This document shows, one piece after another, positions 5,949-21,221 of a stretch of 33,878 nt of DNA (the first letter of the stretch is position 1; each line of letters starts with the position of its first letter). The notes under the pieces are model-generated. The model was not told the origin of the DNA. It ran no database searches and worked only from the letters and a program-made list of their open reading frames with translations. Source of the stretch: Nautiliales bacterium. Lineage in GTDB: Bacteria > Campylobacterota > Campylobacteria > Campylobacterales > JAADDX01. The stretch is from NCBI GenBank assembly GCA_030826765.1, contig JAUUDM010000037.1, positions 1-33,878 of the forward strand. Reading direction: 5' to 3'. A program made the position numbers and the translations under genes.

Positions 5949-7085
5949 TTAAAATCTAAGAGTAATTTCTGTAGCCAATCTAGAAGGCTTTGTCAAACTA
6001 TCACTTCTTATACTAAAATGAATATTTTTATATTGCATTCCTATAACTATACTAGAAAATCTTGTTTCATATCCACAAGATAAAGATAGATTTTTGGAAA
6101 CACGATGATTTATATCTACATATGGAAGATAAATTTGTTCTATATAATCACTTCCTATCGTATAAATATTATCAAAAGTTCTATATTTACTTTCCACTCT
6201 AAATTTTTGCATTAATTTTTGTTTATATTTTACATAACCTTCCCAACCAGAAACTGTTGGATTAAATCTAGCATATCCATGCGAATCATACTTTTTATTA
6301 TTTGAATTTAGATAAACATAACTATGCGGTAAATGCCTCCAATATAAATACCCAATTAAATCATTTGCCAAAAATAAAAAACTCATATTTTTTGATTTAA
6401 TATATAAAGATAAATGAGAACTATATCCATATGCATATGCAGATTTGTCAACATCTAATTTATAAAGATAATTATGTGTATAATTGTAATTAGCAGTGGC
6501 ATTATAATTATAATCATTATTTGAAGTAGCTACTGCTCTACCTGTAATACTACCGTCTTGCATCTCTTTTGAAAAAAGACCTTCTAATCCAAAACCTAAA
6601 TCAACTGTATAATTTTCTTTTTTCAGGATTGAAAATTTTCTTGCATAAGACAATCCTTGCATTTTATAAGCTTTTAAATCTAAAGTTCCACTATATTCTT
6701 TATTTTCTCCCAATCCTTGTTTGTTTTGAGTACGATAAATAAATTCAGCTATATCTTTATTTGTATCAAAAAATATTTCTTCACGATATACATATCCAAA
6801 ATAATTATCTGATTTATCAATATACCCAATATCAAATCTTGCATTTGCATATAGTACATTTCTACCATTTCTTGGATGAAAATCTTTATTTAACTTATTA
6901 AAAACACTTGATAAAGAGAAAGGATCACTTGCCAAAAGTAAATTTGAATGAATATAATATCCATTTTTAGAGGTAATATCTTGTGGAGAAAATATAGGAA
7001 TAACACCAGCAAAAGCTGGAGTTATAAAATAAAAAATTATGAAAAGCTTAATTAATTTCTTAATATAAAGTCTCAAAAGAACCAT
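5949..7085 (-). CDS. Predicted outer-membrane beta-barrel protein, unknown family
   Basis: The signal peptide has a Lys-rich start, a hydrophobic core and a probable signal peptidase I site after TPAFA. The rest, about 350 residues, is rich in Tyr, Asn, Ser and Phe, with alternating patterns typical of amphipathic strands. It ends in TEITLRF, where the terminal Phe is a typical BAM beta-signal. ATG 7085 is preferred; a TTG at 7091 is two codons earlier. Neither has a clear ribosome binding site, and the gene overlaps the end of the 952-residue lipoprotein by about 26 bases. Translational coupling to the lipoprotein is therefore likely, which argues that the two work together. I do not recognise the family. 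A role as a porin, or as a barrel partner that holds or exports the lipoprotein, is inference. Confidence 0.7.
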   Translation of the reverse strand: MVLLRLYIKKLIKLFIIFYFITPAFAGVIPIFSPQDITSKNGYYIHSNLLLASDPFSLSSVFNKLNKDFHPRNGRNVLYANARFDIGYIDKSDNYFGYVYREEIFFDTNKDIAEFIYRTQNKQGLGENKEYSGTLDLKAYKMQGLSYARKFSILKKENYTVDLGFGLEGLFSKEMQDGSITGRAVATSNNDYNYNATANYNYTHNYLYKLDVDKSAYAYGYSSHLSLYIKSKNMSFLFLANDLIGYLYWRHLPHSYVYLNSNNKKYDSHGYARFNPTVSGWEGYVKYKQKLMQKFRVESKYRTFDNIYTIGSDYIEQIYLPYVDINHRVSKNLSLSCGYETRFSSIVIGMQYKNIHFSIRSDSLTKPSRLATEITLRF

Positions 7086-9918
7086 CTGCAAATTTTATAC
7101 GAGGAGTTCCTGAGAAATCTTCTATTGTACCAACTTTATCTCCAGATTCGTTTGTTACACTAGAACTTGCATAATCAACACCATCATCATTGAAATTGAT
7201 TTTAGCTTGTACACCTGAACTTGAGAAAATATTAACAGTTTTTATTTTATCTACATCATTAAATTTCGTATATGCTTTAATTAATGTTTCACCATTTATA
7301 TATGTAACATTAATATTTCTATTTTTTCCTGTATTTAAATAGTTTAAACTTACATTCATTGCAGGAGATTCTGGCATTTGAAGTATTCCTTTTACTGAAA
7401 TATCTAAATTAGGTTCATAATATTTATATGAAGAATCAGCATCTACAACATCTAACCATTTTGCATCTATAATTGCTTCAAGAGATGTAGAATCTTTTGT
7501 ATTTGTAAGTTTTCCATCAAAAATAATTTCTGAAGGGAAATGTCCACTATTTTCAAAATCATCATCTATATCAAAACCAAACCATTTATTATCACCAAAA
7601 TGAGCATTACTACAATCATCTAAACCTTTATAATTTTGAATATTAAACATATAAGATTCATTTAAATCACCTTTTACATCATTAAAATTAAAGTTTATAT
7701 GTGTTTGATTATTATTATTATCATACCATGTTCCATTACTATGTGAATAAGGATGATAAGATAATCCATCTGGAGCTGTAAATGTTATTTCTGATACATC
7801 TAAGTTTCTTACATCACCATCGCATATAAATTCGCTTCCAAACCAAGTATATGGAATTTCAGTCTCAAATCCTTTTTTTGCTGCAATTTTATTAACAGCA
7901 TATTTTATATCAATTTTTCCATCAAGATTATAATTATCTACTACTCCATTTACATAAAGATTTTTAATTTCTACATATTTTGGATTTGGTTGATAATATG
8001 TATTATTTTTATCATCAGTTGTTTTATTTGTATCATATGCAATAAATACATTTGCATCTGTAATACTTACACTATCACCATTATTAGCTATTTTAGCATT
8101 TAAATTAAAATTAGCACCCGTATCTGTTTTATCTACTTTAATATTTGCATTGACATCTTGAGAATTTATTTTTCCTTCTGGAATCGTTGCACCATAATAA
8201 TCAATAGGTAATTTACCTGTAATTTTCGCACTTAAAGTTGTAAAATCTGAAGCATTAAAATCATCAGCACCTAATACTTTTGGATAAGTTAAATTACCTT
8301 CCCAAGGAGTTGTTACATTTGTATCTTTAATAGAATATTTCCAAACAGTATTGTTATCTATATCATCTTTTGAAACTGTAAGATTTCTATCCCCACCATC
8401 AACTATACGAGAAAGTTCTGTTTTATTAGTATCAATAGCTTCAGAAATCATATCATTAAGAGTATCAATAACTTTTGATGTAAATTCTACATTACCAGCT
8501 ATATCATTAAGTGCTTTATTTATTTTAGTTGATTCATCTTTTGTAAAATCTTGTGCTTTATTTACTTGTGTACGAACACTTTCAAGCATATTTTTTGCTT
8601 TTGTAATATCACTTTCTGATGCAATACCTGCTGGTGGATTTAATGTAAGAGATAAAGACATTAAGTCTGTATCATTAGAAGAATAAAGCATTTGACTAAA
8701 ATTTGCCAAAGACATTGTGTCTAAACTTTTATAATCAATACCATCAATAGAAGCTATTTTTTTAGCTATATCATCTGTTATAAGTTGATGATTTGCACCA
8801 ACATATGATTTAATTTTTTGTATAGTATAAGCTGATGATAAAGCATCTTTTATAGAACTATTAATATCACTTGATTCAATAATAGATTCAGGTGTTACAT
8901 CATCTAATGAGTTAAAATTACTTGCAATAGAAGATATATTATCTTTTGTAAAAGAAACATTATAACTATTAAATATATTCTCTATTGCCATAGAAATTAA
9001 TTTTGTACTTGCATCATCAACTGCTGTTGTAATATTATTTTCAATTGTTTGAAGATTTTCAGTATCTACTGTACCATTTGCATCAATTACCGATTGAATA
9101 TTATTTTTAATAACATAATCTGAAATTAAAGCAGCATCTTTTACACTACTTTTCTTATCTACAGCTATTTCTACAGTTTTTTCTATAACTGATGCCACTT
9201 GTGCAGCTTTTAATGTAGAATTGTTATCTGCAGCTTTTGTTACTACATTTACAATTGATATATTAGTATCATTACTATCTGCTACTTGACTTATAGCTGG
9301 TACTAAACTTACATAAACATCACTATTATCAATATTTGAAGCTTTTGCCATAGTAGTTATAACTCTGTGAATTGTCATAGCTTTAGCAATTACTTTTTTA
9401 TTACCATTATTTGCAAGTTCTACAGGATCAGCTTTTATTTCATCTGGTGTTAAATCTAAAACCTTAGCAACTTTAGAATATGCTTTATCCGTAGGAATTC
9501 CTTTTTCAACCATTGCTGCAACTAATGTTATTAATGGTGTAATATTAACATTACCACTTGCTACTGGAGCTTTGAAACTACCTGTTAAATTAGAATATGT
9601 ATCTATATCTATACCACCTTTTACAATAATTGATGCATTAGGATGTGCTTTTCTATCACCTGCAGAAATAGTTAAAGAATAATAACCTTTATCATCTGTC
9701 ATAGCAAAAGGTTCTCCAACATCACATTTATTATTATTATTTTCATCAAAACATACTGTTGCAGTTTTAATATAGCCATCTGCTACCGTACCATTTGTAT
9801 TATTACTACTTGAACTACCATCATCAGAAGAACTACCATTACCCCCACACCCAGTCATTGATAAAACAACTGCTGTTGCTACTGAAATCATTGAAGATTT
9901 TATAATTTTTTTCTTCAT
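7060..9918 (-). CDS. Large predicted surface lipoprotein (952 aa)
   Basis: The N-terminus is a lipoprotein signal with the lipobox S-M-T-G-C (Cys24). There is no Asp at +2, so outer-membrane sorting is likely. A flexible Gly/Ser/Asp/Asn linker follows (about 25-45). Residues about 46-105 form a small beta domain beginning GYIKTATVCFDENNNNKCD with EPFAMTDDKGYYSL. This is a pattern common at the start of large bacterial surface proteins; its Asp/Asn loop could bind calcium and its two cysteines could form a disulfide. Residues about 120-520 are helical and Asp/Ser/Asn-rich. The C-terminal 400 residues are beta-rich with aromatic and Asp/Asn content. The ATG has AAGGAGTG. It follows the secretion genes and one barrel-like gene, and overlaps the next barrel gene. 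A type II secretion cargo or a surface adhesin is plausible but unproven. Confidence 0.75.
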   Translation of the reverse strand: MKKKIIKSSMISVATAVVLSMTGCGGNGSSSDDGSSSSNNTNGTVADGYIKTATVCFDENNNNKCDVGEPFAMTDDKGYYSLTISAGDRKAHPNASIIVKGGIDIDTYSNLTGSFKAPVASGNVNITPLITLVAAMVEKGIPTDKAYSKVAKVLDLTPDEIKADPVELANNGNKKVIAKAMTIHRVITTMAKASNIDNSDVYVSLVPAISQVADSNDTNISIVNVVTKAADNNSTLKAAQVASVIEKTVEIAVDKKSSVKDAALISDYVIKNNIQSVIDANGTVDTENLQTIENNITTAVDDASTKLISMAIENIFNSYNVSFTKDNISSIASNFNSLDDVTPESIIESSDINSSIKDALSSAYTIQKIKSYVGANHQLITDDIAKKIASIDGIDYKSLDTMSLANFSQMLYSSNDTDLMSLSLTLNPPAGIASESDITKAKNMLESVRTQVNKAQDFTKDESTKINKALNDIAGNVEFTSKVIDTLNDMISEAIDTNKTELSRIVDGGDRNLTVSKDDIDNNTVWKYSIKDTNVTTPWEGNLTYPKVLGADDFNASDFTTLSAKITGKLPIDYYGATIPEGKINSQDVNANIKVDKTDTGANFNLNAKIANNGDSVSITDANVFIAYDTNKTTDDKNNTYYQPNPKYVEIKNLYVNGVVDNYNLDGKIDIKYAVNKIAAKKGFETEIPYTWFGSEFICDGDVRNLDVSEITFTAPDGLSYHPYSHSNGTWYDNNNNQTHINFNFNDVKGDLNESYMFNIQNYKGLDDCSNAHFGDNKWFGFDIDDDFENSGHFPSEIIFDGKLTNTKDSTSLEAIIDAKWLDVVDADSSYKYYEPNLDISVKGILQMPESPAMNVSLNYLNTGKNRNINVTYINGETLIKAYTKFNDVDKIKTVNIFSSSGVQAKINFNDDGVDYASSSVTNESGDKVGTIEDFSGTPRIKFADGSFETLY

Positions 9919-9977
9919 ACTTCACTCCTTTTTCAAATTTTTATTATTTTATCATAAATTTCTTTCAAAACTCTTAC

Positions 9978-10000
9978 AAATTTATATTTTTTATAAATTT
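9978..10000 (-). other. AT-only inverted repeat after the 266-residue gene
   Basis: AAATTTATA and TATAAATTT form a perfect 9-base stem around a 5-base loop, starting immediately after the stop of the 266-residue gene on the minus strand. No clear T-run follows, so termination would be inefficient at best. It could be a weak attenuator or RNA 3'-end barrier between that gene and the lipoprotein gene. Confidence 0.35.
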
Positions 10001-10801
10001 TTAAAAATTCAAATAAATTCCTAAATTAAGATATTGATTTTTTGTTTTACTATCTGGTTCATAAACTGCATATGTACCATCACTAAAAGTTATAGTTTTA
10101 GTGTCACTTTTTGTAATTTTCCAATAATCATAAGTATATTTAAAACTTATTCCATAATTTTTAGCAAGATGATATCTTATAGGAAGTTCAAATCTATAAC
10201 CATCAGTTTTACCTAAATCAAAAGTTGTTCCACCACCTAAATCAGCTTCCATTTTAGGAGATACTGCTCTATGATAAAAAAAATTTATTCCATAATCAAA
10301 TTTTGAAAATATTTCATTATCACTAAATCCAACTATAAAATATGGCCAATAATATCTTTCATCATAATCTCCTGCATAATCACTCTTTCCTCTATTCCAA
10401 TATCTATACCCAATTCCAAAATCAAAATACATTTTTTCTATGTATGAAGTAAATTCATAAGTTTTTAAAAAAGCTTCATAGATAATTCTACTGTTAAAAA
10501 TATAACTATTTTTCTCTTGTAAAGTTAAAGGTTTTCCATCCCAAGTACTACCATTATAAGTTGTTTCTCCTTGAGAATATTCAATTCCAAATATAATTCT
10601 ATTTTCATTTACAAAATATTTATAAATATCTAATCTTATTCCAGCCATATCCAAATATTTACTACTTTCACTATCTATAATACTTGAATTTTGATACTCT
10701 TTATAATTAGTTTTTAGAAATGAAGACATCAAATCTATATGTAAATCTGCCCCATTTACTAAAACTAAACTTACAATAATAAACGATAATAATTTTTTCA
10801 T
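10001..10801 (-). CDS. Predicted outer-membrane beta-barrel protein (266 aa)
   Basis: The signal peptide is MKKLLSFIIVSLVLVNGA, with cleavage probably after GA. The mature part, about 248 residues, is rich in Tyr and Phe, has alternating hydrophobic patterns, and ends YLNLGIYLNF, a good beta-signal with terminal Phe. Sequence such as YIEKMYFDFGIGYRYWNRG looks like barrel strands and turns. Length suits an 8-12-strand barrel. The ATG has a GAGGAAT site and starts nine bases after the stop of the last pseudopilin gene, so it belongs to the secretion operon. It is separated from the downstream lipoprotein gene by 82 bases. I do not recognise a named family. The secretin does not normally need such a protein, so it may be a cargo anchor or an unrelated porin-like protein. 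Confidence 0.7.
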   Translation of the reverse strand: MKKLLSFIIVSLVLVNGADLHIDLMSSFLKTNYKEYQNSSIIDSESSKYLDMAGIRLDIYKYFVNENRIIFGIEYSQGETTYNGSTWDGKPLTLQEKNSYIFNSRIIYEAFLKTYEFTSYIEKMYFDFGIGYRYWNRGKSDYAGDYDERYYWPYFIVGFSDNEIFSKFDYGINFFYHRAVSPKMEADLGGGTTFDLGKTDGYRFELPIRYHLAKNYGISFKYTYDYWKITKSDTKTITFSDGTYAVYEPDSKTKNQYLNLGIYLNF

Positions 10802-10810
10802 TTGTATTCC

Positions 10811-11314
10811 TCAATATTCATCAAAAGGTTTTATTTTTTGAATAATTTTTTTATTATTACTAAATTCTATGTCTAAAAGATAAATATTTTTTTGTTTTGA
10901 GGTGAATATTTTAAATTTTTTTACATTACCAATAAAATCAACATCAAATGAATTTTTAGTAGTAGATAAATTAGAAAAAGGATATAAAGTCTCTACTCTA
11001 TAAAGTTTATGATTTTTTACAATATAAGTAACATATGGCATAATTCTTCTATGCAAAGAGTGTGAAGTTTGCATAAATAATGTATCTCTATTTTTATTTT
11101 CTTTTACAACTTTTATACTACCATTTAAAGCAGTTAATAAATCAACAAATGTCATCTTTTTTATTTTTTCAAATTTATCTAATTTATTTTTATTTTCAAT
11201 ATATACTTTATTAGAAACATTTATATCAGCATATGTTTTATATAAAAACACCATTATAATTGAAAGAATAGTAATAGAAATCATAAGTTCAATTAAAGTA
11301 AAACCTTTTTTCAT
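10811..11314 (-). CDS. gspJ: Minor pseudopilin, GspJ-like
   Basis: A 167-residue type IV pilin-like protein. The leader is MKKG and processing would give FTLIELMISITIL..., with Gly at -1, Phe at +1 and Glu at +5. One hydrophobic N-terminal helix (about 5-27) is followed by a charged helix and a beta-rich globular part. In type II secretion GspJ is part of the pseudopilus tip with GspI, GspK and GspH. The J assignment rests on position after the I-like gene and on its greater length; sequence alone does not separate I from J. Its start overlaps the preceding gene by four bases (ATGA). Confidence 0.8.
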   Translation of the reverse strand: MKKGFTLIELMISITILSIIMVFLYKTYADINVSNKVYIENKNKLDKFEKIKKMTFVDLLTALNGSIKVVKENKNRDTLFMQTSHSLHRRIMPYVTYIVKNHKLYRVETLYPFSNLSTTKNSFDVDFIGNVKKFKIFTSKQKNIYLLDIEFSNNKKIIQKIKPFDEY

Positions 11315-11712
11315 TGAATTCTTATCCTAACAAACTTAATATTTTCTTTTTTTATAGAGACTTTACTTTCTCCAAGTTCAAAATTTACTGTTGAATCAGA
11401 ATAATCAGAAGTATTAATATCCTGTAATCTATCATAATCTATTTTTACTTTAATATTTTTAAATTCTCTTCTCAACTCATTATCTAAATCTATATTTTCT
11501 ACAAGTCTATAAAGTGGGAGTTTTTCTTTTTCAAAGCCATATTTGTCATTCCATAAAAATAGTGAAAAATAAGAAGTATCCTCAGATGATTTCTCTAAAT
11601 GCTTAAACATATTAGTTGCATTACCTCTCATTTGTAACATTGCTCCAATAACTAAAGAAATAATCATAACTGATACCATAACTTCTATAAGAGTAAAAGC
11701 CTTTTTATTCAT
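11311..11712 (-). CDS. gspI: Minor pseudopilin, GspI-like
   Basis: A 133-residue pseudopilin. The leader MNKKA precedes FTLIEVMVSVMIISLVIGAML, giving Glu at +5 of the mature helix. The residue before the cleavage site is Ala rather than the usual Gly. GspI is a tip pseudopilin that nucleates the GspI-J-K complex. Length fits the GspI family (about 120-130). The start overlaps the end of gspE by eight bases, and the end overlaps gspJ. The C-terminal part contains Asp/Glu-rich strands and no cysteine. Confidence 0.78.
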   Translation of the reverse strand: MNKKAFTLIEVMVSVMIISLVIGAMLQMRGNATNMFKHLEKSSEDTSYFSLFLWNDKYGFEKEKLPLYRLVENIDLDNELRREFKNIKVKIDYDRLQDINTSDYSDSTVNFELGESKVSIKKENIKFVRIRIQ

Positions 11713-13219
11713 TTCCTAAACCAATTCTAATTGCTTCATCAAGAGAAGTTTCTCCTTTTAGCAATAAAATAGCAAGTTGTTTTGAAATTGTTTGAAATCC
11801 AAAATTTTCTAAAGCTGTTTTAATACTATGTTCATCTATAGTTGTTTTGAGTAATTCTTTTATATCATCATTTATAATTAAAAGTTCTCCAACAGACCTT
11901 CTTCCTATATAACCTGTATAGTTACACTTTTCACATCCAACAGCTTTATAAATTTTACTATTTTTAGGTAAATTATAATCATTTGAATACTCCTTAGCTA
12001 AAATATCTTCTTGTTTGCAATAAGGACACAAAATTCTTACTAATCGTTGAGCTAAAATTCCTAAAAGAGAAGAAGAAATTAAAAATGGTTTAATTTGCAT
12101 ATCTAAAAGTCTTGAAATTGTAGCGACTGCTGAATTTGTGTGAAGTGTAGAAAAAACTAAATGACCGGTAAGAGCAGCTCTGATTGCAATACTTGCTGTC
12201 TCTTCATCCCTCATTTCCCCTACCATAATAACATCTGGGTCTTGACGCAAAATAGAACGAAGTGCCGCTGGAAAAGTTAACCCTACTTTTTCATTTACCT
12301 GAACTTGTGTAATTTTATCAGATTTATATTCTACAGGATCTTCAACTGTAATTATATTTTTTTCCGGAGTTGCTACTTCTCTTAGAAATGAGTGTAAAGA
12401 AGTCGATTTACCACTTCCAGTAGGACCTGTTACTAAAATAATTCCGTGAGATGATTTTAGAAGTTTTTGAATATCTTTTATAAGAGTATTATCAAAGCCA
12501 AGTTCGTCTATTTTAGGTATTTGTGAGCTTTGCATAAGAATCCTCATAACAACTCTTTCACCATAAAAAGTAGGTAAAACAGATACCCTTATATCTAAAA
12601 CTTCTCCAGCAATTTTAATTTGAGTTCGTCCATCTTGTGGAATTCTTTTTTCTGAAATATCAAGGTTTGAAATAACTTTTATTCTTCTTATTATAAGATT
12701 TACCACTTTTTTATCTAAATCCACATTTTTAGTAAGCATTCCATCTATACGAAATTTAACTTCACCTTTTTTTTCCTGCACATCGATGTGAATATCTGAT
12801 GCTCTTTTTTTTACTGCTTGATAAAAAAGCGCATTTACAAATTTAATAATCGGTGCAGACTCTTCACTTGTCAAAATATCACTTGAAGTTCTTAGAAAGT
12901 CTGTAAGAGAGATATCTTCTTCTACCTCATCTTCTTCATTTTCTTGCATTGTTTTAATTGCTTTATCTGTTCTGAGTTCTAAATATTTATTATAAAGTCT
13001 ATCAAATGAATCTTCATCAAGAATTTTAAATGGATATTTGTTTGGAAGTTTTGTATAATAATTGGTTGCTTCTACTAAATATTTTTCAGAAGTAAAAGCT
13101 ACAATTTTATCTTTATATTTACTAAAAAGTAGATAATTTTTTATATTAAGATTTGTATCAATTCTTTCTATTTCATAAACTTCTAACTCCATAGAATGAA
13201 TTTTCTGTAAATTCATCAT
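11705..13219 (-). CDS. gspE: Type II secretion ATPase GspE
   Basis: A 504-residue hexameric cytoplasmic ATPase that powers pseudopilus assembly. The N-terminal domain (about 1-110) binds GspL. The core shows Walker A GPTGSGKST (265-273), an Asp box TVEDPVEYK (291-299), Walker B DPDVIMVGEMRDEE (327-340) and the His box FSTLHTNSA (356-364). A zinc-binding tetracysteine is present as C398-x2-C401 and C429-x2-C432. The tetracysteine is shared by T2SS GspE and PilB, so neighbours decide the call: gspD is directly upstream with an ATGA overlap, and pseudopilin genes follow. ATG 13219 is followed by a second ATG, and GGAG lies upstream. Confidence 0.93.
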   Translation of the reverse strand: MMNLQKIHSMELEVYEIERIDTNLNIKNYLLFSKYKDKIVAFTSEKYLVEATNYYTKLPNKYPFKILDEDSFDRLYNKYLELRTDKAIKTMQENEEDEVEEDISLTDFLRTSSDILTSEESAPIIKFVNALFYQAVKKRASDIHIDVQEKKGEVKFRIDGMLTKNVDLDKKVVNLIIRRIKVISNLDISEKRIPQDGRTQIKIAGEVLDIRVSVLPTFYGERVVMRILMQSSQIPKIDELGFDNTLIKDIQKLLKSSHGIILVTGPTGSGKSTSLHSFLREVATPEKNIITVEDPVEYKSDKITQVQVNEKVGLTFPAALRSILRQDPDVIMVGEMRDEETASIAIRAALTGHLVFSTLHTNSAVATISRLLDMQIKPFLISSSLLGILAQRLVRILCPYCKQEDILAKEYSNDYNLPKNSKIYKAVGCEKCNYTGYIGRRSVGELLIINDDIKELLKTTIDEHSIKTALENFGFQTISKQLAILLLKGETSLDEAIRIGLGNE

Positions 13220-15114
13220 AAAGAGTTCTCCACATATGGAGTAGCTTTTAATATTTTCACTGTTTTATTACTTTCTATCTTTTCTATTTTTTCTTCACTA
13301 TTTTTAGTTTTAGATTTTTTTTCGATTATTTTTTCTGCTTTGTTATTATACTCTTCTTGTATTTTTGCTAAAAGTCCAAGTTTTTGCTGTAATTTAGACA
13401 ATTCTGTACTTTTATCTATAACATAAGGTGTTAAAATAACAATTAAATTATCTTGTTCATATGATTCATTTTTTGAAGAAAACAGACCACCTAAAAATGG
13501 AATATCTCCAAGTAATGGAATTTTTGATTCAGACTTTAAGATATAATTTTTCACAAGTCCTCCTATAATAATATTTTCACCACTACGAAGTATAGCTTCT
13601 GTTTTTACCTCTTGTTTAGAAGTAATAGGTTGTTTAGTGGCATTATTTGTTCCATCATCTAAAACATTTTCCAATGAAGTTACGACATTAAGAGTTACTT
13701 TATTTTTAGATGAAACACGAGGTTTTACCTGCAAAGTAAGTCCAATGTCTTTTCTTTTATAAGAAACTGTTGTACTTCCTGAAACAGAAGTTTGTCCAGA
13801 AGAGATAGAAATTGTTTTTCCTACATAAATTGATGAAGATTTATTGTTCATACATAAAATTGAAGGATTTGAAATAGATTTAGCTGCTCCGTGCGATTGT
13901 AAAAAATTTAGTGTAGCTCCAAGTGCCAAAGCACTTTTAGTCGCTGAACCAATAGTTCCTAAGGCATTAATAACTTGACTACTTACTGAATTAGTTAATG
14001 GAGCTGAACCAAAATTAGCACTCATAGCATATAAACCTGATGAAGAAACATCACCAGCTGAAAAACCATATTTTATACCTACATCTTTGGCTTTATTTTT
14101 ATTAATTTCAATAATTTTAGCTTGCACATAAACTTGATATTTTTCTGTATCTAAATCATCTATAATCTTTTTTAATCCTTCTAACATTACAGGTTCACCC
14201 ACTGCTACAATAGCATTTAATTCTTTGTTTGCAGATACACTTGGTCTCGCACTCGGATCTGAAAAAATCTGTTTTGAAATTATATTATTTAGAGTTTTTA
14301 ATACATTATCAGCATCTGAATTTTTTAATGTAAAAATACGAATATTTTGACTTATATGTGAAGTAACATCCATTTTTTTAATCAATTTTTTTAAAGTTTC
14401 AACGTTTTTAGCTAATCCAACTAATACAAGTCCATTTAAATTTTCATCATAAATTATTTTAACATTTTGAGCTTCAACTCTTTGAGCAAATATAGATTTT
14501 GCTATATTTTCTAATTTATCTTTTAATTTTTTTGCATTTGTATGTTTTATTGGAACAATCTCAACAACTCTTTTATTGTCTAAAGATATTTCATTAATTA
14601 CCTTTTCAATTGTTTTTATATTTTGAGGATAATCTGTAATTAAAATTGCATTACTTTTTCTAATAGTCATAAGTCTTGCAGATTTAGAAGTTAAATATCT
14701 AATTTTTGATGCCACGACATCAACATTTATATTTTTTACTCTAATGATTTTTGTAACCATTAAAGAATTATTTAAATTTTTATCATTTTTTACTATAGGA
14801 AGATTGCTTCTAATAGCATCACTTAATCTAACAATCTCATAAATAGAACCTTGTTGAACTATCGTATATCCCCTGGTATTTAAAACAGATAAAAGAATAT
14901 TCATAAGTTCATCATCATAAATAGGAGTTGTACTAATAAAATTAATTTCACCATCTATTTTTTGAGTCATCAATATGTTTTTATGATTAATTTTTGAAAC
15001 TAATTTTATTAAATCACTAATTTTCATATTTGAAAAATTAACATTTATTTTCTCTCTTGCTTGTAAATTTCCTATTATTAAAAAAGCAATTATTATGTAT
15101 TTAATTAACTTCAT
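13216..15114 (-). CDS. gspD: Type II secretion secretin GspD
   Basis: A 632-residue outer-membrane secretin with a signal peptide cleaved near residue 19 (NLQA). An N0 domain (about 21-100) is followed by repeated N1-N3 domains (about 115-325), which form the periplasmic vestibule. The secretin core runs from about 325 to 565 and includes SNPSILCMNNKSSSIYVGKTI, a Gly/Ser-rich gate segment, and SKIPLLGDIPFLGGLFSS (about 529-546). The tail after 570 is Lys/Glu-rich and might carry pilotin contact or a coiled coil; no pilotin gene is seen. It overlaps gspC by 14 bases at its start and gspE at its end. The single Cys421 is in the core. Confidence 0.95.
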   Translation of the reverse strand: MKLIKYIIIAFLIIGNLQAREKINVNFSNMKISDLIKLVSKINHKNILMTQKIDGEINFISTTPIYDDELMNILLSVLNTRGYTIVQQGSIYEIVRLSDAIRSNLPIVKNDKNLNNSLMVTKIIRVKNINVDVVASKIRYLTSKSARLMTIRKSNAILITDYPQNIKTIEKVINEISLDNKRVVEIVPIKHTNAKKLKDKLENIAKSIFAQRVEAQNVKIIYDENLNGLVLVGLAKNVETLKKLIKKMDVTSHISQNIRIFTLKNSDADNVLKTLNNIISKQIFSDPSARPSVSANKELNAIVAVGEPVMLEGLKKIIDDLDTEKYQVYVQAKIIEINKNKAKDVGIKYGFSAGDVSSSGLYAMSANFGSAPLTNSVSSQVINALGTIGSATKSALALGATLNFLQSHGAAKSISNPSILCMNNKSSSIYVGKTISISSGQTSVSGSTTVSYKRKDIGLTLQVKPRVSSKNKVTLNVVTSLENVLDDGTNNATKQPITSKQEVKTEAILRSGENIIIGGLVKNYILKSESKIPLLGDIPFLGGLFSSKNESYEQDNLIVILTPYVIDKSTELSKLQQKLGLLAKIQEEYNNKAEKIIEKKSKTKNSEEKIEKIESNKTVKILKATPYVENSL

Positions 15115-15901
15115 ATGTTATCTCCTTTTCTTCATTACCTCTTTTTATAATCAAATTTAGTGTATCTATATATTTTATATTTTTATATAGATTCATAACA
15201 TCATTATAAGATGAAAATCTTACATTATTTGCACCTAATATAATATCTCCTCTTTTCAATCCTAATTGTGCCATTTTTGAGCCTGCTCTTATTCTTCTAA
15301 TTATAAATCCTTTTAGTTTGCCATTTTTTTTGATTTCATCTATAGAAATATCTCTCCAAATCTCTGAAAAATGATGAGTATAATAAGTTACATCCTTTCG
15401 ATTAACAGTTTTTAATGAATCCCTATTTTCATAAGAAACCCTACTAATTCTATTCATATTTTTTTTATTTTGATTAAGTTTTAAAATATAATCTTTATTA
15501 TTTTTAGTAAATATTACATAATCTAAATAAATGGATTTAAGTTTATAACCTTGATAAGTTTCTCCTATTGAAATTATAGATGTTTTACTTGGATTTTTTT
15601 TATTAGCTATTATTATATATCCATATTTTTCATTCCCATAAAGCCCTTTAAGTATCAGCTCATTTATATTCATTACATCTGTTATATTATGTTTTATTTG
15701 TTTTTTATTTTTCAAAATAATAGGCTCTAACATATTTTGAAAATCTATTCTTTGATAAGGCATTACACAAGAAATATTTTTATTGGATTCTACTCCCATT
15801 TCTGGTAAATACCACCATACAACAAGAGATAATAATTTAGCAAAAAGGAGTATAAATATAATAGTTTCTATTATATTTAATAAATTAAAAGTTTTCTTCA
15901 T
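15101..15901 (-). CDS. gspC: Type II secretion inner-membrane protein GspC (PDZ type)
   Basis: A 266-residue inner-membrane protein linking the platform to the secretin. The start ATG 15901 has GGGGAG seven bases upstream; an in-frame ATG at 15916 has none. Residues about 9-30 are the membrane helix. A periplasmic homology-region-like domain follows (about 60-150). The last 70 residues form a PDZ domain, beginning KGFIIRRIRAGSKMAQLGLK and containing GDIILGANNV. The PDZ form of GspC, rather than the coiled-coil form, is a substrate-selectivity determinant in known systems. The gene overlaps both neighbours and sits just upstream of gspD, the classic C-D pair. Confidence 0.85.
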   Translation of the reverse strand: MKKTFNLLNIIETIIFILLFAKLLSLVVWWYLPEMGVESNKNISCVMPYQRIDFQNMLEPIILKNKKQIKHNITDVMNINELILKGLYGNEKYGYIIIANKKNPSKTSIISIGETYQGYKLKSIYLDYVIFTKNNKDYILKLNQNKKNMNRISRVSYENRDSLKTVNRKDVTYYTHHFSEIWRDISIDEIKKNGKLKGFIIRRIRAGSKMAQLGLKRGDIILGANNVRFSSYNDVMNLYKNIKYIDTLNLIIKRGNEEKEITYEVN

Positions 15902-16418
15902 ATTTATACTCCCCATTTTTTATCTTTTTAAACTCTCTTAAAACAGTTCTATATTTTCTAATCATAAGTTTTGACGGATATAAAATAACAACCGCTTTTT
16001 TATTTAATAAAGAGATTTTTATATCAGCTTTTCCAAAATCACCTTTTGAAAGACCTACTACATTTAAAGGATTAAAAATAGAATAAACTAAATAAGTTTT
16101 TTCAATATGAGTAGGTAAAAAATCTTGCATAACCGAAGAAAGTTTTATGTTTTTTAAATTAACTTTATTATATAAAAGTAATAAAATAATATCTCCATTT
16201 TCAACAGTTGCACTATCTACTCCTTGCACACTTATATGCATATTTTTTATATTTAAATTAAAACCTCTTTCAGCTAACTTTTCATCTGAAATAACAACAT
16301 CGTATTTTACAAGATATTTTTCTATTAAATAATATAAATTAGTTTTTGGCACAAAATAAACAAAAGCTATTAAAAACATCAAAATATAAAAAATATATTT
16401 AAAAAAATTTTTTACCAT
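15885..16418 (-). CDS. gspN: Type II secretion protein, GspN-like
   Basis: A 177-residue protein with one N-terminal membrane helix (about 6-24) and a periplasmic part predicted to be beta-rich with strand pairs such as NLNIKNMHISVQGV and KADIKISLLNKKAVVIL. This matches the AsmA-like organisation of GspN, but identity is weak by eye and the protein is shorter than typical GspN (about 250). The call is supported by its place between gspM-like and gspC genes. GspN is dispensable in several known systems. The start overlaps gspM by seven bases and the ribosome binding site is weak. Confidence 0.6.
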   Translation of the reverse strand: MVKNFFKYIFYILMFLIAFVYFVPKTNLYYLIEKYLVKYDVVISDEKLAERGFNLNIKNMHISVQGVDSATVENGDIILLLLYNKVNLKNIKLSSVMQDFLPTHIEKTYLVYSIFNPLNVVGLSKGDFGKADIKISLLNKKAVVILYPSKLMIRKYRTVLREFKKIKNGEYKYEENF

Positions 16419-16813
16419 TGTAAACTCATTTCTAAAGATGCTGTTTTATTATCTTTTGTCTGAATATTAAACGATTTTATTTTATAAACACCATTAAATA
16501 TTCTTGAAGATAATTTATTTAATATATCTAAATTCAATTTATTTGCTTTTATATTTACACCATTTGGGATATAGTTTAGTATTATATTATTCTTTTTTAT
16601 CCAATATTTATTAGCAATTTCTCTTTTAAAATTTTGTTTTGTTTTTTTAAATGCATTTTTATATGCTTTTAATTCAAATGCAACTTTTTTAGTTTCCTGA
16701 AATGATTTTTTAGCCTCATTTAAGCTATTTTCTAAATTTGAAATTTTAAAAAACAAAAAAACAACTATAACAATAGATAAAACAATTATATAAAAAGGAT
16801 TTATTTGATTCAT
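16412..16813 (-). CDS. gspM: Type II secretion platform protein, GspM-like
   Basis: A 133-residue inner-membrane protein. One N-terminal helix (about 6-24) is followed by a coiled-coil-prone Lys/Glu segment (about 26-70) and a small beta-alpha domain, consistent with GspM's ferredoxin-like periplasmic fold. GspM partners GspL in the platform. It follows gspL directly with an ATGA overlap, and GAGG is present upstream of the ATG. Sequence identity of GspM is always low, so synteny and topology carry the call. Confidence 0.72.
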   Translation of the reverse strand: MNQINPFYIIVLSIVIVVFLFFKISNLENSLNEAKKSFQETKKVAFELKAYKNAFKKTKQNFKREIANKYWIKKNNIILNYIPNGVNIKANKLNLDILNKLSSRIFNGVYKIKSFNIQTKDNKTASLEMSLQW

Positions 16814-17748
16814 ATTTTTACCTCTATATTCATTTGATTTTTTATAAAATTATATGTGAATTTAATGTTTTCTTTATTTAAAAAGTCAATCACACTTTTT
16901 GCTTGTTTATCGTTTCCTATTCCTTTAATTTTTACTAAGATTAAATTTCCAGCATATTTAATACTTATGATTTTTTCATTCTTATCAAGTTTTAATTTTA
17001 ATATTTCTCCTACGACTTTTCTTAATTTTAACTGTTTATTAAATATTTCTTTGTAAGATTCTAAAATAGAGAGATTTTGTATCATTGTTGGTTTCAAATG
17101 ATATTTTTGAAATAACTCATCTTTTTTTGTTTCAATTTTACCAATTTTATTATTTAATATAAAAATTTGAACTATTAAAATAAAAATCAATAATCCTAAT
17201 ATAAAACTAATTTTATACAAATGTTTTGTATCAATTAAATTACCACCATATTGTTTAATTCTTATTTTCTTATTTGAAAGTGTTATATCATCTAAACTTA
17301 ACTCTTTTACATCATCAAACCACTCTTTGAATCCAAGTAAAATAATGTTATCTTTTACATAAATAACTTCATTTTCATTAACTTTTACTGGCATAGATAG
17401 ATTTTGTAATTCTGTTTGTGCTAAATGAATAGATGAAATATTTGATAAAGGTATATTTTTTTCTCTTAAAAGCTCTAAAATTTTTTTATCTTCATATGCA
17501 AAAGCAATATATTCATCACCTTCTTTATAAACAAAATAACTATAAACACCCTCAGGTAAAATATCTTCAAATATTGATGGTAAAAGTTTTTTAACTTCTC
17601 TTAAATTTACAGATAAATTAATTTTTTTTAACCAATATAAAGAAGGTGAAAGTATAATAGAAAATTTTTCTTTATTATTAGAGTTTATCTTTTTTGTAAA
17701 TTTATCTAAAAAAATATTTTTAGTTTTTGTTTTAAATTTCGAAAGCAA
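16810..17748 (-). CDS. gspL: Type II secretion platform protein, GspL-like
   Basis: An inner-membrane protein that recruits GspE. A cytoplasmic N-terminal domain (about 25-170) shows the strand pattern of the actin-like GspL fold. A single membrane helix (about 178-198) and a coiled segment follow, then a periplasmic ferredoxin-like domain. The start chosen is TTG 17748, because AAAAGGTG lies six bases upstream (312 residues). The ATG at 17766 adds six residues but has no ribosome binding site. The upstream gspK stop lies inside this gene's start, so translation is coupled. Low sequence identity is normal for GspL; topology and position support the name. Confidence 0.75.
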   Translation of the reverse strand: MLSKFKTKTKNIFLDKFTKKINSNNKEKFSIILSPSLYWLKKINLSVNLREVKKLLPSIFEDILPEGVYSYFVYKEGDEYIAFAYEDKKILELLREKNIPLSNISSIHLAQTELQNLSMPVKVNENEVIYVKDNIILLGFKEWFDDVKELSLDDITLSNKKIRIKQYGGNLIDTKHLYKISFILGLLIFILIVQIFILNNKIGKIETKKDELFQKYHLKPTMIQNLSILESYKEIFNKQLKLRKVVGEILKLKLDKNEKIISIKYAGNLILVKIKGIGNDKQAKSVIDFLNKENIKFTYNFIKNQMNIEVKI

Positions 17749-18634
17749 AATTTGACACCTTTTCATTTTTTATATCATATTCAAAACTAATATGAGCAAA
17801 TTGATTATCTTTTTGGGTAAAAATATTTACTAAAATATAAGGTTCATAAAAGCTTATTTTAAACTTAGATAATCTCTTTTTTTCTTCATCATTTAAATTT
17901 AAATCTTTTAATTTATGATAAGTTCCCTCTTTTTTATATAATTCTTCTGCTCTTATTTTATCAATACCAAGCATAAATTCCCAAGTTTGAATAGTTGCAT
18001 AATTTAAATCAATTGCCATATCAATATTTTTAGAATAATAAAACAACTCATTAAATGGTATTTTATCTAAATTTATACTATTTTCTTCTTGATAGAATTC
18101 ATTAATTTGATTTAAATGCTCTTTTGAAGCTATATAATTCCTAAAAAGAGAAGGATTTTTATCAAAAATATCCGTATTATAAATATTCTTATCTTTTTTT
18201 GCTTTATAAAAATTTATATTATCCAATAATACATCAGCATAATCATAACTTACCATGAAATTATTATTTAAATATTCTCTTAAATATTCTCTTGCATCTT
18301 TATTAACTGCAATTATATTAGGATTAAATTTACTCCTTGCACTACTTATTGAAATTTTTATTTGAATATCTTTAGTATTTAGAGGAATAAATTGTGTATT
18401 TGATAAAAAAGCGTGAAATTTATCTGTTGCATTTTTATCTTGTAAAGCTTTAATATCTTTAGATTTTTTCAAAATATTAATTATATCATTAGTAATAGCT
18501 ACATTTTGATACATAAATTTTTCATTATCTACTTTTTGCATAGAATTATTAAGCTGTTTTAGTCCATAACCAATAGTCGCTGTAATTACAATGATAAACA
18601 TTAAAGTTAAAAGTAATGCCACTCCCTTTTTCAT
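17732..18634 (-). CDS. gspK: Minor pseudopilin GspK-like
   Basis: A 300-residue tip pseudopilin. The leader is MKKG and the mature protein begins VALLLTLMF, with no Glu at +5, which is the hallmark of GspK. A large mostly helical domain follows, with the GspK/SAM-like segment INLDKIPFNELFYYSKNI and DKIRAEELYKKEG. GspK caps the pseudopilus tip. Length suits the family (about 300-330). Its start overlaps the end of gspF by one base. Confidence 0.85.
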   Translation of the reverse strand: MKKGVALLLTLMFIIVITATIGYGLKQLNNSMQKVDNEKFMYQNVAITNDIINILKKSKDIKALQDKNATDKFHAFLSNTQFIPLNTKDIQIKISISSARSKFNPNIIAVNKDAREYLREYLNNNFMVSYDYADVLLDNINFYKAKKDKNIYNTDIFDKNPSLFRNYIASKEHLNQINEFYQEENSINLDKIPFNELFYYSKNIDMAIDLNYATIQTWEFMLGIDKIRAEELYKKEGTYHKLKDLNLNDEEKKRLSKFKISFYEPYILVNIFTQKDNQFAHISFEYDIKNEKVSNFAFEI

Positions 18635-19848
18635 CAGTGAATACTCATAGAAAAAATTGGAAGTAACATTGCAGCTACAATAAAACCTATACTACCACCC
18701 ACTATAAGCATAAGTGTTGGTTCTAATAAAGTTAAAAGCATAGCGATTTTATCTCTATTCTCTTCAAAATATAGTTCAGAAATATTTATAAAAACCCTCC
18801 CCGTTTGTGAAGTTTCTTCACCAATTGCTACAGCTTGTAAAAAATCAATATTTAATTTAGTTTTTTCTTCATTTAGTGATTGTGAAAGAAGCTTACCTTC
18901 TACTACTTTTTTACTTGCATCTATAAACATTTTTTTAATTACTCTGTTATTTAAAATATTTGCACTTAAATTTACAGTTTGCACAAACGGCACACCTGAG
19001 CGAATAAGAAGTGAAGCCATATAAGAAAATCTTGCAAGTTCACTTTTCATTACAATATCTCCAAAAATTGGAATTTTTAAAATTATTTTATCTATAAAAT
19101 AAGCAAATGTATAAACTTTTTTTCTTAAAATTACAAAAAGGGCTACAATTATAAAAATAGATATTAAAATCAGTTGAAAATTATTACTAAAAAAATTCCC
19201 CATAGCAATTACAAAAAGTGTCGAATCAGGAAGTTTTTGGTCCATACTTTTAAAAATAGAAGTGATTTGTGGCACTACAAAAGTAAGCATAAAAATAATC
19301 ATTGCAAATGAAACCACTATCATAAAAGATGGATAAGCAAAAGCACTTGTTATCTCTTTTTTGATTTTATCTTGTTCTTTTAAAAATCTCGATAATTCCA
19401 TCAAAACTTCATCTAAAATACCACCATTTTCACTAACTTTAATAGATTCTTTATAAAATTCAGGAAGACTCACTACTCCTTGCATTTGTAAAGCTGTATA
19501 AAAATCTTTCCCCTCATCTAAATAAGTACTAATTGTTGTCAAAAATAACTCAATTTTTTTATTTGATTTATAATGTGATGATATTATTTTTATAGCTGAA
19601 ACTATACTTATACCGGAACGAAGATACATTGAAAGTTCTCTTGAAAGTGCGGCAAGTTCTTTTGGAGGAATTTTATATTTTATACTAAAATTAAAATTTT
19701 TTAAAAAAGATGTTTTTTCTTCTTCTATTTTTTGATAAATAATTCCTTTTGCTTTTAATTTTGTTTTTGCTTCGTCAATAGAAATAGCTTCTATTTTATC
19801 TTTAACTTTTTTACCTTTACTATCAATACCTTTATATTTAAAAATCAT
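18634..19848 (-). CDS. gspF: Type II secretion platform protein GspF
   Basis: A 404-residue polytopic inner-membrane protein of the PilC/GspF family. The N-terminal segment (YKGIDSKGKKVK) is the usual cytoplasmic start. Two homologous T2SSF helical bundles follow at about 65-190 and 265-390, each with LSMYLRSGISIVSAI-like or ASLLIRSGVPFVQTV blocks. Three membrane helices are visible (about 170-192, 215-237 and 375-400). GspF couples GspE to the pseudopilins. The ATG overlaps the gspH stop by four bases. Confidence 0.93.
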   Translation of the reverse strand: MIFKYKGIDSKGKKVKDKIEAISIDEAKTKLKAKGIIYQKIEEEKTSFLKNFNFSIKYKIPPKELAALSRELSMYLRSGISIVSAIKIISSHYKSNKKIELFLTTISTYLDEGKDFYTALQMQGVVSLPEFYKESIKVSENGGILDEVLMELSRFLKEQDKIKKEITSAFAYPSFMIVVSFAMIIFMLTFVVPQITSIFKSMDQKLPDSTLFVIAMGNFFSNNFQLILISIFIIVALFVILRKKVYTFAYFIDKIILKIPIFGDIVMKSELARFSYMASLLIRSGVPFVQTVNLSANILNNRVIKKMFIDASKKVVEGKLLSQSLNEEKTKLNIDFLQAVAIGEETSQTGRVFINISELYFEENRDKIAMLLTLLEPTLMLIVGGSIGFIVAAMLLPIFSMSIH

Positions 19849-20327
19849 TGTAATACTTCTTCTATCAGTTTTGATTTAGTTTCACTAAGTTCAGATAAAG
19901 AATCATAAATTTTAGGATTATTAAAATAATCAGTATAATCATAAACTTTATTTTTATAACGAATTATCACTTGGTCAGTTATCCCATTTTTATCTACACT
20001 AAAGCTAAAAAAGTTATTATCATCTTTTTTAGAAACTCCATTATAATAATTATATCTATAGATTTCTACACTATCATCAAAAAATGATTTTACTTCTTTT
20101 ATTTTTTTATTATCAATTTCAATAAAACATTTGTCAGCATTTTCTGGACAAATAAAAGCAACTTTTGAAGTTTTAGAAAAAGATTGAAGATAAAATTTTA
20201 AATTTTTAAAAGAAGGAGTTATTTTTTCATATAAAGGAGATTTTATTTTTGAAATAACAATAGAATAAACAACTCCTATAATCATAACAACTATCAATAA
20301 CTCCATCAACGAAAAAGATTTTTTCAA
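19845..20327 (-). CDS. gspH: Minor pseudopilin, GspH-like
   Basis: A pseudopilin with an N-terminal FSLMELLIVVMIIGVVYSIVI helix and Glu at +5. The residue before the cleavage site is Ser rather than Gly. The start is uncertain: TTG 20327, just after the gspG stop, gives the leader MKKS, resembling the leaders of the sister pseudopilins. A GTG at 20342 gives the longer leader MNVNSLKKS. Neither has a strong ribosome binding site, and coupling to gspG is likely. About 160 residues with a beta-rich globular part and two cysteines (about 60 and 67 in FICPENADKCFIE), which could pair in the periplasm. GspH is assigned from its position after gspG and its size. Confidence 0.78.
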   Translation of the reverse strand: MKKSFSLMELLIVVMIIGVVYSIVISKIKSPLYEKITPSFKNLKFYLQSFSKTSKVAFICPENADKCFIEIDNKKIKEVKSFFDDSVEIYRYNYYNGVSKKDDNNFFSFSVDKNGITDQVIIRYKNKVYDYTDYFNNPKIYDSLSELSETKSKLIEEVLQ

Positions 20328-20328
20328 A

Positions 20329-20718
20329 CTATTTACATTCACTTAGTCTAATATCAGCATTTTCACCTTTTCCACCCTCTTTACCATCAGCACCAAGAGA
20401 AATAAGCTCTACTTTTCCATCTTTATTTATATAAATAAAATTATGATCCCATGAATCTTTTGGCATTTTTCCATCTTTAAAATATTTATCTGTTTTTGTA
20501 AGTGCAGATAGCCCCTCTTCTGTCGAAGGGTAAGAACCATGATCTAATTTATACATATCAAGTGCACCATCGTACATAGATTTCATTTGAACACAAACAA
20601 GCTTTTGTTTAGCTTCACTCCCTTTTGAAGTAAGTGCTGGCATAACCATTGATGCTAAAAGTCCTAAAATAACAATAACTATCATAAGTTCTATTAGAGA
20701 AAATCCTCTTTTTTTCAT
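20329..20718 (-). CDS. gspG: Major pseudopilin GspG
   Basis: A 129-residue major pseudopilin that forms the secretion piston. The leader MKKRG precedes FSLIELMIVIVILGLLASMVMPAL. The globular part has the GspG signatures DHGSYPSTEEGLSAL, PKDSWDHNFIY and the calcium loop LGADGKEGGKGENADI. The Trp-Gly of the common PWG motif is Trp-Asp here. The ATG has AAAGG upstream. It is the first gene of the secretion block, with an extended -10 28 bases before the start codon. Confidence 0.95.
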   Translation of the reverse strand: MKKRGFSLIELMIVIVILGLLASMVMPALTSKGSEAKQKLVCVQMKSMYDGALDMYKLDHGSYPSTEEGLSALTKTDKYFKDGKMPKDSWDHNFIYINKDGKVELISLGADGKEGGKGENADIRLSECK

Positions 20719-20873: not shown

Positions 20874-21221
20874 TTAACAACCAGCTGGAACTTTTCCGTT
20901 TAAGATACCTTTTAAGAAATCTTCCACATCTTTTGTTTTATGTTTTTTAACTATTTTTTTAAGACCTTCTGCAACTTTTGGAAGTCCTGCTTTGTTAGCT
21001 GCTTCAATTAGTCCTTTTGCGTTGTTTGCAAATAATGCATCTAAATCATCTGGATCTTCAACATCTATTTTTTTTAGGAAAGCTGTTGAAGTAACCCCAC
21101 TTGATTTTTTAACATATTTGTTAAAATATTTAAACCCTTTGTTATAATCAGCAAATGACATTGTTGTTGCAACACTTGCAATTAATGCTCCAGCTGCTAA
21201 CATTTTTACTAATTTTTTCAT
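20874..21221 (-). CDS. Small exported protein with a C-terminal cysteine
   Basis: A 115-residue protein with a signal peptide (cleavage near TMSFA-DYN), leaving a basic, helix-rich mature domain of about 91 residues. Repeated KK/DK pairs and a DLDALFANNAKGLIEAANKAGLPKVAEGL region suggest a short helical bundle. The final residue is the only cysteine (KVPAGC). Lone terminal cysteines may suit disulfide attachment, metal or sulfur chemistry, but that is speculation. The ATG has an AAGGAG site. The gene has its own -10 and lies directly upstream of the secretion operon, with no convincing terminator between. It is a possible small secretion cargo. I do not recognise the family. Confidence 0.75.
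   Translation of the reverse strand: MKKLVKMLAAGALIASVATTMSFADYNKGFKYFNKYVKKSSGVTSTAFLKKIDVEDPDDLDALFANNAKGLIEAANKAGLPKVAEGLKKIVKKHKTKDVEDFLKGILNGKVPAGC

Follow-up and report, generated by a model that had tools for sequence, protein, structure and literature searches.

A conserved lipoprotein-barrel gene pair associated with type II secretion in Campylobacterota: a candidate surface complex

Routes to the cell surface and the locus analysed

The Slam exporter is a DUF560 barrel with an N-terminal TPR domain, and systems of the SusCD or TbpAB type are built on a 22-strand TonB-dependent barrel with a plug. The transfer of lipidated proteins to the outer surface by the type II secretion system (T2SS) is a question that was reopened by work on GspN in 2025. 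In Acinetobacter, the surface location of T2SS-dependent lipoproteins depends on a stretch rich in Gly/Ser or Asn/Asp that follows the lipidated cysteine, and their export requires GspN, as that of PulA requires PulN in Klebsiella (PMC12802150). In Shewanella, MtrC is a T2SS-delivered surface lipoprotein that sits on the barrel MtrB (PMC1974784, PMC12175506).

The stretch of DNA analysed here, 33,878 nucleotides of a contig from a Nautiliales bacterium of deep-sea-vent type (hereafter the window), carries a gsp gene cluster followed by genes for a barrel-like protein (B1), a large lipoprotein (LP) and a second barrel (B2) (Table 1). A sequence-only reading of the window had described these three open reading frames, and their positions were borne out, all on the minus strand, as was the start of B1 9 bases past gspJ (10811-11314). 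The overlap of about 26 bases that it had given for LP and the 380-residue gene is also correct when counted from the in-frame ATG at 7085 (378 aa), which is the likely start of B2; counted from the TTG that yields 380 aa, it is 32 bases. B1 and LP are separated by 82 bases and a good ribosome-binding site lies immediately 5' of LP, so the two genes are co-directional without translational coupling. The same reading had placed none of the three in a named family, and Pfam and NCBIfam scans agree, returning chance-level matches to B1, LP and B2 with none above cut-off; a Pfam scan of every sequence aligned for LP and B2 likewise gave chance-level matches only.

Table 1. Positions of the features discussed in the window and the basis of each call
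Feature	Position	Strand	Basis or remark
B2, 380-aa outer-membrane barrel, putative LP partner	5949-7091	minus	ORF, AlphaFold2, reciprocal co-occurrence
LP, 952-aa lipoprotein	7060-9918	minus	ORF call, AlphaFold2 model, relatives
LP conserved C-terminal tail, residues 929-952, ending GTPRIKFADGSFETLY	7063-7134	minus	all B2-paired lipoproteins
LP Cys24 and sorting motif C-GGNGSSSD (residues 24-32)	9823-9849	minus	20 family members scored
B1, 266-aa barrel-like outer-membrane protein	10001-10801	minus	operon member here, outside conserved module
gspJ and gspI, minor pseudopilins	10811-11712	minus	N_methyl domain matches
gspE, T2SS ATPase	11705-13219	minus	PF00437 1.6e-132, TIGR02533 2.3e-163
gspD, secretin	13216-15114	minus	TIGR02517 above equivalog cut-off (NCBIfam)
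gspC, PDZ type	15101-15916	minus	GspC_delta 1.8e-18, TIGR01713 3.4e-16, PDZ_2
GspN-like, 177 aa, N-terminal membrane helix	15885-16418	minus	family in 77 gsp-locus ORFs
GspM-like (133 aa), GspL-like (318 aa), GspK-like (300 aa)	16412-18634	minus	gene order and membrane helices
gspF, gspH-like, gspG	18634-20718	minus	PF00482, N_methyl, PF08334

The upstream gsp genes (G, H, F, K/L/M-like, GspN-like, C, D, E, I and J) are those of a genuine T2SS. With gspC-J and the K/L/M-like genes in the window and two prepilin peptidase genes elsewhere in the genome, the system is complete. The GspK, GspL and GspM labels were assigned from gene order and the pattern of membrane helices; these genes matched no curated family in the Pfam and NCBIfam scans and are conserved across gsp loci. 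In eight loci of one family (L189, L190, L194, L197, L201, L203, L204 and L206) the GspL-like frame is long (560-620 aa) and there is no separate GspK-like gene, possibly reflecting a fusion. Between the gspM-like gene and gspC lies a reading frame of 177 aa that is probably a short GspN, an assignment that is weak by sequence: TIGR04411 (GspN) matches 4 of 25 relatives weakly (best E 6e-4) and the window copy itself not at all. A 115-aa secreted-looking protein of no family is encoded between flgK and gspG (20874-21221), and a profile search of other gsp loci found no relative of it.

The LP-B2 pair and its association with type II secretion

A survey of 150 genomes of the order for B1, B2, LP stretches and GspC identified B1 and B2 in 16 genomes each and LP stretches in 35. 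A profile of the LP C-terminal domain matches exactly the 16 B2 genomes and none other of the 150. Each B2 gene found comes immediately after a lipoprotein gene, and the product of that gene matches LP over its final 450-500 residues, as seen in 17 loci and then in 15 from a wider scan, the two sets overlapping partly. On these sequence comparisons LP and B2 are an obligate pair and a conserved unit, and the unit is LP-B2 rather than a trio with B1, since the two occur in the same 16 genomes and B2 always follows an LP-type lipoprotein. The idea that the lipoprotein and the overlapping barrel belong together, put forward from the window alone, thus extends across genomes. The distance matrices of LP and B2 correlate at r = 0.91, which fits co-inheritance and is not by itself proof of contact.

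B1 had been counted in the same module, and this part of the proposal did not stand. The protein has a signal peptide, a beta-rich pattern and a C-terminal Phe, and is about equally frequent without a T2SS: 9 of its 16 genomes are GspC-positive and 7 negative (p = 0.51, no association). B1 and B2 have few genomes in common and are not neighbours outside the window. The trio was accordingly dropped, and B1 is, as far as sequence comparison goes, an unrelated, widely scattered protein and not a module member. The only other gsp-linked B1 relative seen lies between gspL-like and gspM-like genes (L091:9633-10607, genome G128).

GspC marks 80 of the 150 genomes, and all 16 B2 genomes are among them (Fisher 2e-5); with GspC shuffled within families, the association keeps only moderate significance (p = 0.016). 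LP stretches, which include the N-terminal module without B2, fall in GspC-positive genomes in 33 of 35 cases (Fisher 4e-9; within-family permutation p = 5e-5). Of the two exceptions, one genome (G118) holds a full-length gspD frame and the other (G049) is a weak match. Common descent exaggerates the raw Fisher values and the within-family tests are more reliable; absences carry assembly noise because many of the surveyed genomes are vent MAGs. A second survey, of 397 genomes of the phylum and overlapping the first, contained about 93 with a true GspC, after profile matches at E 1e-6 to 1e-9 were left out as HtrA-type PDZ proteins (470-500 aa frames); B2 was present in 12 genomes, 12/12 GspC-positive. 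A family mate of the window genome (G012) lacks GspC, LP and B2.

Six sampled genomes have the pair within or bordering the gsp cluster, in three arrangements. In the window, LP-B2 closes the gsp operon. In MAG loci L235, L236, L237 and L239 the pair opens it, in the order LP-B2-gspG-gspH-gspF, and the full run through gspJ is seen in L277, which seems to be the locus of L235 again. In the complete genome G047 (L076) the pair comes before gspG-H-I-J, and the gspDC side lies back to back with it. Could the placement of LP and B2 in this operon be accidental, without any functional link to type II secretion? B1, which sits in the same operon and shows no association, speaks for it; the pair, in contrast, is present exclusively with a T2SS and is gsp-linked in 6 of 23 B2 genomes against about 2% expected, with P about 5e-6 if the cases are independent, 0.01 if recounted as three independent events and 0.08 as two. 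Chance adjacency is thus regarded as very improbable.

That the pair runs in the same direction as the adjoining gsp operon in several genomes would also suit a role of LP and B2 as accessories of the secretion machine, for example as a secretin stabiliser or a pilotin-like helper. However, 64 of the 80 GspC-positive genomes lack the pair, and in most B2-positive genomes it is unlinked to gsp genes; the pair is therefore dispensable for the machine, and an accessory role is given very little credence. The tie to type II secretion that the sequence-only reading proposed, and would have abandoned had the genes proved common without type II genes, holds for LP-B2: such occurrence was checked for and not seen, and the co-occurrence (16/16 and 12/12), the six-genome linkage and the sorting motif described below all point the same way.

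Architecture of LP and B2 and a proposed route of assembly

LP begins with a signal peptide and the lipobox LSMTG-C24, with Cys24 as the predicted lipidation site. A lipobox is present in LP and all 20 relatives scored, and the LP stretch after the cysteine, GGNGSSSD, matches the Gly/Ser/Asn/Asp sorting motif. Across the LP family, 20/20 members have 5-8 of 8 such residues after the cysteine; at least 5 of 8 also occur in 10 of 36 other lipoproteins, several of them large and beside gsp clusters. At the genome level, a DNA pattern for lipobox-Cys-Gly-Gly-Gly is found 4.45 times per GspC-positive genome versus 1.06 per negative one (within-family p = 1e-4), and a reversed-codon control gave 0.82 versus 0.41; the pattern is crude, and the window LP (GGN) is not among its matches. 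Other large lipoproteins with a Gly-rich sorting motif within 5 kb of gsp clusters were seen at L158 (637 aa), L163 (790), L165 (428), L170 (587) and L178 (563); unmatched by LP profiles, they are candidates for further T2SS clients.

The AlphaFold2 model of LP (pLDDT 84, pTM 0.60) comprises a tether (residues 25-37), a beta-sandwich (38-120), a helical part (128-430), a 62-residue helix (435-496) and an all-beta C-domain (500-952). Among solved structures Foldseek returned nothing below E 0.001, the weak best fold matches being LptD-type chains, and a search of PDB sequence profiles gave a doubtful EMC10 match alone (E 0.001). The fold matches, together with the majority of loci being unlinked to gsp genes, are what favours a periplasmic LP that plugs or gates B2 from inside, as LptE does in LptD, with the T2SS link due to a shared lifestyle. 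Against it, the sorting motif and N-terminal module follow the T2SS even without B2, a 952-residue protein with a long helical stalk is large for a plug, and the gsp linkage persists in rearranged form. An inner plug is accordingly considered quite unlikely.

All B2-paired lipoproteins end in a near-invariant tail, [I/V]KYxDG[T/S]FES[L/I]x, found in 17 of the 1,957 frames of the collected loci, all 17 being paired LP relatives, and in 0 of about 1,940 other neighbouring frames. Unpaired lipoproteins that share only the LP N-terminal module lack it. The tail suggests a docking signal, because an extreme C-terminus is strictly kept and tied to a single partner gene. The N-terminal module is common to other T2SS-associated lipoproteins and therefore probably serves export or anchoring, while the C-terminal half is probably the B2-specific functional part.

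Further LP-type lipoproteins were observed in genomes that carry the pair. In genome G047 a 1229-aa lipoprotein with an LP-like N-terminal module and a different C-terminus lies directly upstream of LP-B2 (L076:5128-8817). Loci L274 (4167-6182) and L275 (4101-6158) encode a second LP-type lipoprotein of 671-685 aa with C-GGGGGG and the tail IKY.DG[ST]LQSLI; no barrel is adjacent, and their genomes also carry an LP-B2 pair.

B2 is modelled as a confident beta-barrel (AlphaFold2 pLDDT 88, pTM 0.83), in agreement with its initial description as barrel-like. The mature protein is predicted to be barrel throughout, with no extra domain past the signal peptide and about 16-17 strands, an approximate count from the secondary-structure string. 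The nearest solved folds in Foldseek are barrels, among them those of FadL/TodX type, with TM not above 0.42, and a search of PDB sequence profiles found nothing. A scan of 85,000 species genomes matched B2 in Campylobacterota only, and a search of plasmids gave no match. Membership in three known classes was rejected: the FadL family (no profile match, best TM 0.42 at about 9% identity), the SusCD or TbpAB type (B2 has 380 aa, no plug and no Pfam match) and the Slam exporters (no DUF560 match in the Pfam scan of 23 members, which matched no other family either, and no TPR or POTRA domain).

These features bear on whether B2 could be LP's own export gate, flipping one lipoprotein outward in the manner of Slam, with the T2SS unrelated. 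The strict LP-B2 pairing, the gene overlap and the precedent of Slam barrels as lipoprotein exporters speak for such a gate. The all-barrel B2, with neither a TPR or POTRA domain nor DUF560 similarity, speaks against it, and such a gate leaves the T2SS-only occurrence of the pair and the T2SS-type sorting motif unaccounted for; we consider it unlikely.

We favour, with moderate confidence, an explanation in which the adjacent T2SS exports LP as a lipoprotein of the cell surface and B2 is the outer-membrane barrel dedicated to it. LP would cross the inner membrane by Sec and be lipidated at Cys24; the lipobox is observed and the pathway is standard. The Gly/Ser/Asn/Asp stretch would then keep LP off the Lol route and mark it for the T2SS, and the GspN-like protein may help this sorting, by analogy with Acinetobacter and Klebsiella. 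LP would exit via the GspD pore, remain anchored in the outer leaflet, and dock its C-terminal beta-domain on B2 from outside through the invariant tail. Counting against this reading, two genomes (G022 and G037) carry an extra LP-type lipoprotein without a neighbouring B2. The role of the complex is most likely surface uptake, attachment or a gated pore. More tentatively, it may be built from both sides, with B2 arriving from the periplasm and LP via the T2SS pore, and the two locked by the C-terminal tag.

Comparison with described systems

JlpA, a surface lipoprotein of Campylobacter jejuni in the same phylum, matches the LP model weakly (rank 43, E 0.4, TM 0.13/0.29) and is much smaller; this is not evidence of kinship. 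FadL/TodX channels are the best structural matches of B2, but the likeness is that of barrels in general. Slam barrels are paired with surface lipoproteins and B2 with a putative one, whereas B2 lacks both DUF560 similarity and a periplasmic repeat domain.

By analogy, MtrC-MtrB is the closest working analogue of LP-B2. In both, a lipoprotein gene adjoins a barrel gene, although for LP the surface site and the barrel contact are predicted. LP has no CxxCH heme motif and is not an MtrCAB member, B2 has about 16-17 strands and not 26, and there is no MtrA; because LP lacks the heme motif, the resemblance is at most one of assembly.

PulA of Klebsiella and InvL of Acinetobacter are like LP in having a lipobox, a rich stretch after the cysteine, and a T2SS with a GspN-like protein (PMC12802150). 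No common family was found, and LP differs in its obligate barrel partner and conserved C-terminal tail. Campylobacterota offer an independent phylum where the T2SS is accompanied by the proposed sorting motif and by a GspN-like gene, and LP is a likely client of the widespread, little-studied T2SS of vent members of this phylum. If this is true, the Gly-rich T2SS lipoprotein sorting code, so far studied in Proteobacteria, extends across Campylobacterota. The LP-B2 pair contributes a candidate docking partner, together with a short, precise and mutable C-terminal tag.
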